A DNA stretch of 64,000 nucleotides from Chitinophaga pinensis. Lineage in GTDB: Bacteria > Bacteroidota > Bacteroidia > Chitinophagales > Chitinophagaceae. A program made the position numbers and the translations under genes. Within the stretch, counting starts at the first letter, position 1, and each line of letters begins with the position of its first letter. This document shows positions 20,308 through 61,074 of this stretch, piece after piece. The notes under the pieces were generated by a model. It had not been told where the DNA came from and searched no databases. It worked only from the letters and a program-made list of their open reading frames with translations. Where the stretch lies: the NCBI GenBank assembly GCA_945878115.1, contig CAMDVD010000002.1:62001-126000 (forward strand). Reading direction: 5' to 3'.

Positions 20308-20393
20308 GGGCGGCAGGCACGCTATCCGTTTCAATCTTTTTGCTTGCTTCGCAGTAAAAAGGATTTCCACTACTATCGTGGCCGCAATGCAAC
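20308..20393 (+). repeat. GGGCGGC...GCCGCAAT dispersed element, copy 1
   Basis: Starts GGGCGGCAGGCACGC, contains an internal stem with CTTTTTGCT and AAAAAGG, and ends GGCCGCAATGCAAC. It is richer in G+C than its surroundings and lies in the 306-base gap between the divergent helicase and rluF genes, where I find nothing else. Other copies: 30724-30811, 41157-41243, 50217-50301, 60939-61074. Confidence 0.8.
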
Positions 20394-41156: not shown

Positions 41157-41243
41157 TGGGCGGCGCACACGCTTTTCGCTACAATCTTTTTGCTGCAGAG
41201 CCAGCAAAAAGGATTTTCGCTACAATCGTTGCCGCAATACAAC
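41157..41243 (+). repeat. GGGCGGC...GCCGCAAT dispersed element, copy 3
   Basis: GGGCGGCGCACACGC at the left and GTTGCCGCAATACAAC at the right. Here the word TTTTCGCTACAATC occurs twice as a direct repeat on either side of a stem with CTTTTTGCT and AGCAAAAAG. Confidence 0.8.
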
Positions 41244-41305: not shown

Positions 41306-41662
41306 ATACGGCAATTTAGCAAATTAAACAATGATTTATTAGTAATTTAAGATTACAATTGTCTATCAGTTTCAAAACTAGAATGACTAAAGGAAAATTA
41401 ATATTTTTTAATGAGCTTTTCGTAAAGGTTGCTGAAAGCAACAGAATAAAACTACGAAACGAAAGACGTTTCGCAGAACATGATACGGCGATTTAGTAAA
41501 TTAAACACTGATTTATTAGTCATTTGAGATTACAATTGTCTATCAGTTTCGAAATTAGAACGACCAAATAAAATTCTATTTTTTTTAATAATCATTGCGA
41601 AAAGCTTGCTGAAAGCAACAGAATAAAACTACGAAACGAAAGACGTTTCGTAGAACATGATA
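41306..41662 (+). repeat. Tandem duplication of a 177-bp unit containing 73-bp repeat copies 1 and 2
   Basis: Units start with ATACGG at 41306 and 41483. Each ends in a 73-bp element (41416-41485 and 41590-41662) with two hairpins: GTTGCT-GAA-AGCAAC, and CTACGAAACG-AAAGA-CGTTTCGTAG (perfect in copy 2). Two more copies lie at 42387-42459 and 42530-42602. With the GGGCGGC element this fills the 41093-41784 gap; no gene is seen there. Confidence 0.8.
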
Positions 41663-41784
41663 TACAAAACCGCTGAAAGTGAATTGAGATTGCAATCTTC
41701 AAATAGTTGCACAATAAATAATAATGGTGAAGAAGACTGCTGTCAAACAATCAATAACTATATTCGCATTCAAATACATTTAAT

Positions 41785-42039
41785 ATGGAAACAACTTTTG
41801 TAGTCACACCAGATGAATTAAATAGTAATTTTTTGGCATCACTAAAAAAATTATTTAAACACCGTCGCCAATTACAAATATCTGTTTCAGTGCCAGAAGA
41901 TTTTAATCTGCTACAAACCGAAACACCACAAGCTAGCATTGCACGATTAGAAAAATGCTTGGAAGATATGAATAACAAAACAAACATAATATCTTTTACC
42001 GAAGCTCAATTAGACGAAATTATTTTTGAAAAACTATAA
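41785..42039 (+). CDS. Antitoxin of a YoeB-type module
   Basis: 84 residues, charged, with a short N-terminal beta/helix segment (FVVTPDELNSNFLASLKKLF) and an acidic C-terminal tail (IISFTEAQLDEIIFEKL), as expected for a small protein that folds onto a toxin. It lies 7 bases upstream of the YoeB frame, in the antitoxin-first order of YefM-YoeB modules, but the sequence is not a plain YefM. The assignment depends on the neighbour. It appears intact although the toxin is broken. Confidence 0.7.
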   Translation: METTFVVTPDELNSNFLASLKKLFKHRRQLQISVSVPEDFNLLQTETPQASIARLEKCLEDMNNKTNIISFTEAQLDEIIFEKL

Positions 42040-42046
42040 TCTAAAA

Positions 42047-42309
42047 ATGAAAAAAATCATTTTTCATATTGATGCTTTTGAAGATTTTACGAATTGGGCA
42101 ATTGTGAACAAAAATACCTTTAAACGTATTGCAGAATTGTTGAAAGATATTAGCAGAACGCCTTTTGAAGGCAAAGGCAAGCCCGAACCTTTGAAACATA
42201 ATTTAAAAGGGTGTGGAGCAGGCGTATTACTGATGAACACAGGTTAGTATATAGAATTGCTGAAAACACAAATGTTGAAATCATAAGTTGTAAAGGACAT
42301 TACGACTAG
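42047..42309 (+). pseudogene. YoeB/Txe-type toxin, frameshifted
   Basis: The frame from the ATG at 42047 reads MKKIIFHIDAFEDFTNWAIV ... ISRTPFEGKGKPEPLKHNLKG, a clear YoeB N-terminal part, then passes into unrelated residues and stops at 42244-42246. In the -1 frame, directly after the GGG of NLKG, the missing C-terminus appears: WSRRITDEHRLVYRIAENT, then NVEIISCKGHYD and a stop at 42307-42309. It contains the catalytic Glu/Arg/His region of the RNase. The simplest reading is loss of one G from a G run. A ribosomal frameshift at AAAGGG is possible but no strong slippery site or downstream structure is evident. Confidence 0.88.
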
Positions 42310-42342
42310 CAGACATGGGTTGCAAATCCACCAGCCAACAAA

Positions 42343-42459
42343 CATATAACACTAGAACGACCAAATAAAAATCTATATTTTTTAATAATCATTTCGTAAA
42401 GGTTGCTGAAAGCAACAGAATGAAACTACGAAACGAAAGACGTTTCGCAGAACATGATA
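42343..42459 (+). repeat. 73-bp repeat copy 3 with its upstream flank
   Basis: The core is 42387-42459; the preceding AGAACGACCAAATAAAA and the T-rich stretch also match the unit at 41483-41662, so the repeated block is longer than the hairpin core. Confidence 0.75.
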
Positions 42460-42529
42460 GACGAAGACTTAATCAAGCAAAGAATCATAGTAATCCTACT
42501 AATCAAAAAAATCATAGTTCAGACAATAT

Positions 42530-42602
42530 AATCATTTCGTAAAGGTTGCCGAAAGCAACAGAATGAAACTAGGAAACGAAAGACGTTTCGGAGAACATGA
42601 TA
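42530..42602 (+). repeat. 73-bp repeat copy 4
   Basis: Same core as copies 1-3 with CTAGGAAACG/CGTTTCGGAG in place of the paired arms, so the second hairpin is weakened. It ends 2 bases from the stop of the orphan antitoxin gene. Confidence 0.75.
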
Positions 42603-42604
42603 GC

Positions 42605-42850
42605 TTAGTTGATTCCATATTTTGTTTTGTACTTCAATACGATTGCTTCATGTGGAATTCCTTTGCCGTCTTTTATTGATTGTTGTGCTTGACGTATTCT
42701 TTTCTTTTGCTCCTCTGTTAGTGAATCAAATACAGACGCATTTTGACTATTAATCTTACTTTGTATGTAGTCAGTTACTTCTTTTAAAACATTTTCGTTT
42801 AGTGTGTCTACTTGACGAATTATATTCAGTTTAAGTTCTGCTGTATTCAT
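42605..42850 (-). CDS. Small orphan antitoxin-like protein
   Basis: 81 residues, helical and charged: MNTAELKLNIIRQVDTLNEN at the N-terminus, then VLKEVTDYIQSKI and SLTEEQKKRIRQAQQSIKDG, ending KYGIN. Proteins with this layout in this phylum usually precede a RelE/ParE toxin gene (established pattern for such addiction-module proteins). Downstream on its strand there is no toxin but copy 4 of the 73-bp repeat, 2 bases away. Either the toxin was lost or the protein has another role. No DNA-binding fold is recognised. Confidence 0.65.
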   Translation of the reverse strand: MNTAELKLNIIRQVDTLNENVLKEVTDYIQSKINSQNASVFDSLTEEQKKRIRQAQQSIKDGKGIPHEAIVLKYKTKYGIN

Positions 42851-50216: not shown

Positions 50217-50301
50217 GCATTGCGGCAACGATTGTAATGGAAATCCTTTTTGCTGGCTCTGGAGCAAAAAGATTGAAATGGAAAGCGTGATTGCCGCCCA
50301 A
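50217..50301 (-). repeat. GGGCGGC...GCCGCAAT dispersed element, copy 4
   Basis: Reads GCATTGCGGCAACGATTG at the left and GTGATTGCCGCCCA at the right, with the CTTTTTGCTGGCTC / GGAGCAAAAAG stem inside. It fills most of the 49985-50364 gap; the remainder shows nothing. Confidence 0.8.
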
Positions 50302-60938: not shown

Positions 60939-61074
60939 GGGCGGCAGGCACGTCCTGGCGATGAATGTTAGGATCCGTTTCCGCTCAAAGCATTGGAAAC
61001 TGGACTATCCGTTCCAAACTTTTTGCTCCAAAGCGAGCAAAAAGGATTTCCACTACTATCCTTGCCGCAATACA
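60939..61074 (+). repeat. GGGCGGC...GCCGCAAT dispersed element, copy 5 (long form)
   Basis: 136 bases: GGGCGGCAGGCACGTCC at the left, CTTGCCGCAATAC at the right, with an extra ~45-base segment (GATCCGTTTCCGCTCAAAGC region) absent from copies 1, 3 and 4, and the CTTTTTGCTCC / GAGCAAAAAGG stem. With the 44-bp array it fills the gap before aroC; the last 240 bases hold nothing else. Confidence 0.8.

Follow-up and report, generated by a model that had tools for sequence, protein, structure and literature searches.

Four two-hairpin repeats and their toxin-antitoxin neighbors

The window (the whole stretch of 64,000 nucleotides analyzed here) lies on contig C2 of a Chitinophaga pinensis genome (G000) of 3.58 Mb in 101 contigs. 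It contains four copies of a 73-76 bp repeat, called REPs below, all located on the + strand and 92-96% identical to copy 3. Copy 1 (41411-41486; 84.8 bits) has its model core at 41425-41480, with hairpin 1 at 41428-41442 and hairpin 2 at 41452-41476. The corresponding positions are 41602-41657, 41605-41619 and 41629-41653 for copy 2 (41588-41663; 83.1 bits), 42399-42454, 42402-42416 and 42426-42450 for copy 3 (42385-42460; 83.6 bits), and 42542-42597, 42545-42559 and 42569-42593 for copy 4 (42528-42603; 70.3 bits). An 18-nt piece of hairpin 2, searched with up to three mismatches allowed, has four matches in the window, all of them exact, compared to 0.04 in shuffled sequences, and the fold of copy 3 has a z-score of -3.9 on the + strand and -4.8 on the - strand. 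The first two copies belong to a 177-bp tandem duplication. Unit 1 (41306-41482, +) comprises the 5' neighbor DNA and REP copy 1, unit 2 (41483-41659, +) ends with REP copy 2, and the two are 88% identical. The homology of unit 2 begins 2 nt past the core end of REP copy 1. The initial annotation, which reported four hairpin repeats and a tandem duplication holding copies 1 and 2, was thus right on both points, and the number of copies is far above shuffle expectation. It also reported two strong hairpins; both are present, but base pairing is imperfect in each of the four copies (hairpin 1: one mismatch each in copies 2 and 4; hairpin 2: one each in copies 1 and 3, two in copy 4).

Three small genes accompany the repeats. 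The first (41785-42039, +) is a presumed antitoxin of a YoeB-like toxin; it is 95% identical in the sister genome G013. The initial annotation placed an antitoxin gene here, and the location by the toxin holds, but the identity is given by position only, a Pfam search having returned no match. The second is a truncated YoeB-like toxin gene (42047-42247, +). Its 66-codon open reading frame matches YoeB_toxin (PF06769) with 59.1 bits (cut-off 27), and since the match covers only profile positions 1-50 of 80, the toxin is truncated. In G013 the same frame is uninterrupted and 98 codons long, and together these observations confirm that the toxin is broken, as first proposed. The third gene (42605-42850, -) had been called an orphan antitoxin, a name upheld by its 44% identity (76 residues) with genes of the ParE loci L217 and L220. 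Only residues 1-44 of its 81 residues match in G013, and the match stops at the 3' end of a REP.

The window is therefore ordered as a flank with a REP, the same flank with a REP, a toxin-antitoxin pair with a REP, a short repeat with a REP, and the orphan antitoxin. The G013 locus contains six REPs in a different arrangement, with an uninterrupted toxin frame and a cut orphan antitoxin. At 11 loci of other genus members around the neighboring aminotransferase gene, neither a REP nor the hydrolase gene was found within the reach of about 1.5 kb.

The short repeat, located in the spacer between copies 3 and 4 (42461-42527, +), is a separate dispersed repeat with 51 genome matches at E≤1, and its copies are regularly spaced at C5 (102 bp apart), C34 and C66. 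A reading of the REPs as a known RNA family was dropped, because no Rfam family reached its gathering score on them, although tRNAs and Flavo-1 RNAs did so elsewhere in the window. The four Flavo-1 matches are found at 41161-41237 (-), 20311-20387 (-), 50220-50296 (+) and 61005-61059 (-), and one of them stops about 170 bases ahead of REP copy 1.

A dispersed REP family with RAYT genes inside inverted copies

When one copy was searched against the genome with BLAST, 34 matches reached E≤10, and 20 of these were below 1e-6. A covariance model built from 21 copies has 36 matches in G000 and 48 in G013, a close relative that is mostly 90-98% identical within aligned blocks. Read 5' to 3', the REP begins with an A/T-rich tail and continues with hairpin 1 (GTTGCT-GAA-AGCAAC), an AGAAT-containing linker, the ten-pair hairpin 2 and GAAC. 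Behind GAAC, copies have a short end or else a longer tail finishing near GGAACTGG. In type A, the A/T-rich 5' tail is similar to what separates the hairpins from the start codon of the REP-associated tyrosine transposase (RAYT) genes described below. Type B, the kind found on the downstream side of these genes, has TTTGCT...AGCAAA, and several copies end in AAGAACGGG. Among the 21 copies, 94.3% of the paired cells can pair versus 34-49% when the structure is slid by 1-3 columns, a comparison that favors any structure drawn from the same sequences. Four pairs changed on both sides, three of them in hairpin 2. The number of cells with two-sided change (21) and the covariation score are above all 500 shuffles, whereas the number of two-sided pairs (reached by 201 of 500 shuffles) and the further pair types (498 of 500) are not. 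These counts back the hairpin structure to a moderate degree.

Two Y1 transposase genes of the genome, on contigs C54 and C8, sit between copies of the window repeat. With 97.6 and 93.8 bits, respectively, they exceed the cut-off (80) of NF047646, the NCBI family of REP-associated tyrosine transposases. The RAYT-type transposase that the initial annotation advised looking for elsewhere thus exists, within inverted copies of the same repeat; none of the ten Y1 and ten RAYT-family matches of the genome is located on C2. Each unit has one REP downstream and one upstream of the gene, inverted and with hairpin 2 facing outwards. The same layout is found in G002, G003 (where the gene has a stop), G010, G013 and in G022, a member of another genus. 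A search with the C8 RAYT among named genomes led to four loci. Three of these (two in CANJRV01 and one in CANHGW01, which are not independent of G013 and G002) have the REP-flanked layout, and the fourth (JANXRR01, RAYT 50% identical) has no match to the repeat. Both histidines of the H-x-H motif and the tyrosine are invariant in 18 aligned homologues, a selection from the matches. Among PDB entries, 4er8, in which a RAYT is complexed with a REP hairpin, is the best match of a structure model of the RAYT (E 2.8e-4); as the mean pLDDT is 56, the predicted fold has supporting value only.

The two units (C54:16609-17328 and C8:78242-78985) are 84% identical over 745 columns, and the homology stops at most 5 nt from the outer REP cores. 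The alignment spans them completely, from one outer end to the other, so that the duplication involved the entire unit. Both units are also present in G013, and the C8 unit has a second downstream REP that derives from a tandem copy of the RAYT 3' end with its REP. According to the available text of PMC6006769, a REP type generally has a single full-length gene, and RAYT units seemingly do not transpose as a unit; the duplication is at odds with the latter view.

Two further open reading frames, on C28 and C7, score above the NF047646 cut-off, and a third is found on C24 when three stops are read through. The C28 and C7 loci (L036, L127 and L035) have no match to the REP model and the C24 locus has a single one (14.6 bits, E 0.77); these RAYTs presumably go with other repeats. 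A model search of 15 genomes (14 of the genus and one other) found no copies at E≤0.01 in five of them. Three of these five do have RAYT-family matches, so other RAYTs presumably have repeats of their own. In an evenly drawn sample of 296 genomes from the phylum, searched at E≤0.001 with strict filters that miss weak relatives, the own genome was the only one with a match. Spread by phages or plasmids was dropped as an explanation, because neither one repeat copy searched against phage and plasmid records nor one exact pattern searched against viral contigs gave a match.

The orientation of neighboring copies differs between genera. Among the matches listed, close pairs are direct in seven of seven cases in G000, eight of 12 in G013 and four of four in G005, whereas seven of eight are inverted 5'-to-5' in G022, which belongs to a different genus of the same family. 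Ten inverted doublets of G022 (L275-L283), read base by base, each consist of two two-hairpin REPs joined 5' to 5', and most carry outer ends of the GCTCT...AGAGC kind. These doublets would be REPINs or RAYT units without the gene. The C100 locus (L073, 2802-3176) contains four type-B REPs in a direct array, and the aligned sister locus (L249) has one. We found no clean empty site for a REP insertion; in the best case, C63b, G000 has 312 extra bases, but these include other repeats too. The window repeats are dispersed, extragenic REP elements and not markers of a defence array, and their assignment to the REP-RAYT class has good support.

Mostly one-sided breaks between sister genomes

Co-linearity with G013 was compared around 32 REP copies of G000 (among 34 listed of the 36 matches), over at most 1.5 kb on each side. 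The G013 stretches were chosen by repeat or flank matches, and the comparison began from the G000 copies only and concerns one pair of draft genomes. Twenty copies have a REP-bearing counterpart, 19 through a match that spans the REP and has 200 bases or more, and C44b through a match of 116 columns. Twelve copies were set aside (win1 to win4 denote the four window copies): win1, whose counterpart is the same as that of win2, win4, which has repeat-unit matches only, and ten others without a match across the REP that includes their own flanks (C63a, C63b, C37, C11x, C11B, C1B, C40B, C40b, C1b and C100d, the last REP of an array, matching only from 65 nt upstream on).

In 11 of the 20 shared REPs, co-linearity is lost within 0-40 nt beyond the 3' end of the core: win2 (+5), win3 (+4), C15b (+40), C54up (+39), C44a (+30), C44b (about 0), C90 (+23), C6B (+2), C33a (+6), C4 (+3) and C100a (+2). 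The other nine (C15a, C8up, C8dn1, C8dn2, C54dn, C54x, C50, C33b and C24), which include all three REPs of the C8 RAYT unit, have no 3' break nearby. On the 5' side there is a single nearby break among the 20, at C44b and 61 nt away. Per locus, a 3' break alone is seen nine times, a 5' break alone never and both together once (two-sided sign test, P 0.004; P 0.008 without C15b, whose G013 counterpart reaches the contig end after 174 unmatched bases). At base level, the shared sequence stops at the terminus of each element type, i.e., at +2 to +6 in short-ended copies and at +23 to +40 (BLAST) in longer-tailed copies, whose conserved tail measures 34-40 nt by eye. When the aligned blocks of 16 locus pairs were counted by hand, some 30 breaks were noted, and ten of these fall at the 3' end of a REP. 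Rearrangements between the sister genomes thus adjoin the repeats, mostly at their 3' end. No shared motif is claimed on the side of the junction partner, where it was looked for by eye.

For three of these breaks a likely direction can be assigned: all have the look of deletions that set out from the 3' end of the REP into a neighboring gene. At C54up, G013 and G000 both have a surface-protein-like gene that enters the REP tail; its open reading frame has 1074 codons in G013 and 913 in G000, and G000 has 478 bases fewer than G013 at the REP end. At C90, G000 has a 231-codon gene of which G013 keeps only the first bases by the REP (839 bases versus ten). The orphan antitoxin of the window has the same appearance. 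Tandem copies were found at win1-2, C8 and C100a-b, where the homology of the second unit starts 2 nt past the core of the first REP, while at C6 the end of the neighboring toxin gene is repeated directly after the REP. A few junction bases at win1-2 and C6 can be assigned to either side. Among 16 close direct pairs, three start at the REP end, five run through the array in register and eight begin 33-202 nt further in; the last eight differ from a simple REP-end event.

Proposed cutting at the REP 3' end and its alternatives

We consider it probable that the repeats are the REPs of a RAYT whose cutting at the REP 3' end explains the arrays. The RAYT, an HUH/Y1 single-strand nuclease encoded on C54 and C8, would recognize single-stranded DNA by binding its hairpins and cleave the REP at its 3' terminus, beside the GAAC behind hairpin 2, and the free 3' end of the REP would then be joined to another cut or broken site. 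Rejoining further downstream would delete the intervening DNA, rejoining upstream on the sister strand would yield a tandem copy of the 5' neighbor and its REP, and rejoining elsewhere may occur as well. Repeated events would leave direct arrays of short segments each followed by a REP, as in the window, and account for the 177-bp duplication and the changing toxin-antitoxin neighbors. The RAYT as cutter, the strand chemistry and the order of events are what we infer from sequence comparison. According to the consulted part of PMC8266576, HUH enzymes leave a 3'-OH and a 5'-phosphotyrosine, and TnpA_REP of E. coli cleaves at C|T on the 5' or the 3' side of its REP and is able to recombine what it has cut. 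If the cut fell at the 3' end, the REP would keep a free 3'-OH for joining to other DNA, which predicts the 3' polarity.

The most serious alternative accepts the REPs but ascribes the one-sided breaks and tandem units to replication slippage, fork breakage at a hairpin or homologous recombination between dispersed copies. Hairpins stall replication forks, and the ambiguous junction bases at win1-2 and C6 fit such processes. Tandem arrays of REPINs plus flanks have also been reported in Pseudomonas (PMC3116915, in the part available). Homologous recombination, however, should hit both sides alike, against 11 of 20 REPs with a 3' break and one of 20 with a 5' break. The breaks moreover lie at the element terminus, at a position that differs by type, and the nearest open reading frame of 110 codons or more lies at a comparable distance on either side (median 192 and 226 bp). 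We therefore regard this explanation as unlikely.

Compared with known systems, the REPs and their RAYTs have both shared and divergent features. As in the REP/BIME-RAYT (TnpA_REP) systems of E. coli and Pseudomonas, hairpin repeats are dispersed, an HUH/Y1 RAYT gene is flanked by inverted copies, and REPIN-like inverted pairs occur in the G022 genus. Unlike in these systems, the REPs are built of two hairpins and lack a 5' GT[AG]G foot (the repeat alignment shows no canonical foot on a single hairpin), all seven close pairs in the own genome, among the matches listed, are direct, the genome has two RAYT units of one type, and the rearrangements are mostly 3'. With 36 and 48 matches, the REPs are also fewer than the >100 copies per genome given as usual in the accessible text of PMC2817692. 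The nearest described group is TnpA_REP subclass 2.6 of Bacteroidetes, which in the available portion of PMC6006769 also lacks the GT[AG]G foot and is characterized by the motifs NH[LIV]H, WQ and YIH[QN]NP. The RAYTs of this study share with it the phylum of the named relatives, the motifs NH[IV]H and YIHQNP, and ‘atypical secondary structures’ that flank the gene and have copies elsewhere. They differ from it, as far as that portion describes it, in the two-hairpin anatomy, the unit duplication and the polarity. As the aligned tryptophan does not show WQ (both own RAYTs have W-T there), we do not file them in subclass 2.6. IS200/IS605 elements and derived mini-elements share the predicted Y1 transposase fold, hairpins near the ends and the expected single-strand chemistry, but have distinct left and right ends, where we find inverted pairs of similar ends and no clean empty site. 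In the consulted parts of the open-licence literature (PMC6006769, PMC3733652, PMC3116915 and PMC8266576) we found no description of a two-hairpin REP, a duplicated RAYT unit or one-sided breaks, and an earlier description elsewhere is possible.

A wider reading, which we put forward tentatively and hold to be somewhat less than an even chance, is that for a subclass-2.6-like RAYT the two-hairpin REP would be a one-ended site with a fixed 3' end and nearly any nearby partner. Such a site would delete downstream genes, capture upstream DNA in tandem, build cassette-like arrays, often with toxin-antitoxin genes, and move the RAYT unit. If true, this would contradict the views of RAYT units as immobile and of single REPs as dead remnants. 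The spread of REPs is poorly understood, according to the available text of PMC8266576. Two sister genomes that have the same REPs and mostly one-sided breaks would make products of the presumed reaction directly available for counting, in a RAYT group of which the sources at hand report only atypical structures, and the toxin-antitoxin scar would become a predictable by-product.

Two more alternatives do not involve cutting by the RAYT. The initial annotation compared the repeats to recombination sites that separate defence cassettes, which would make them integron-like or other site-specific sites exchanged by an integrase. Integron attC sites form direct arrays in which each small segment has a hairpin repeat at its 3' side, and the direct REP arrays, with small toxin-antitoxin genes between the window copies, resemble them in this respect. 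Toxin genes are also enriched near REPs. The ParE family has eight matches in G000, two within 500 bp of a REP (C63 and C6), and 12 in G013, four within 500 bp, one of which is the window ortholog; the matches at C6, C23 and C87 are below the family cut-off. PIN has six matches in G000 and four in G013, one near a REP in each. Without the window ortholog, three of 14 ParE and PIN matches in G000 (0.13 expected) and four of 15 in G013 (0.20 expected) lie within 500 bp; these expectations are based on the length of the genome instead of its number of genes, and on REP clusters counted by hand. Because C6 and C87 are orthologs, as are C50 and C26, the counts of the two genomes are not independent. 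Unlike attC sites, the REPs are dispersed through the genome, the junction partners that we read are no second site, and the co-occurring enzyme is a RAYT within inverted repeat pairs. Rearrangements next to the repeats and the enrichment of ParE and PIN are what remains of the initial proposal; cassette exchange between two sites is not supported, since nearly all breaks are one-sided, the partners read are not repeats and ordinary neighbors are commoner. For the same one-sidedness and partners, and despite the toxin-antitoxin proximity above chance, integron-like cassettes were dropped as the main reading, and we consider them highly improbable. A structured RNA or intrinsic terminator that spread through chance duplications is just as improbable: together with its flank, hairpin 2 is terminator-like on the - strand in three of four copies, and 2 kb contain four terminator-like sites versus 0.8 in shuffles, but the copies bracket RAYT genes in a fixed inverted geometry in two genera, and terminator activity may be a side effect.

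The toxin enrichment may be indirect, given that toxin-antitoxin genes and REPs could share a preference for variable intergenic places. The initial annotation had proposed to check whether copies elsewhere flank random genes; toxin-antitoxin genes are above chance, but more loci have ordinary neighbors, which outnumber them in our reading of the open reading frames at the REP loci examined. Most such toxin-antitoxin genes sit 5' of the REP, while those at C23 and the orphan antitoxin of the window sit 3'. At C23 of G013 (L247, 2950-3260), a second ParE-class toxin near a REP matches the first part of the family only and by eye looks frame-shifted, which recalls the truncated toxin of the window.
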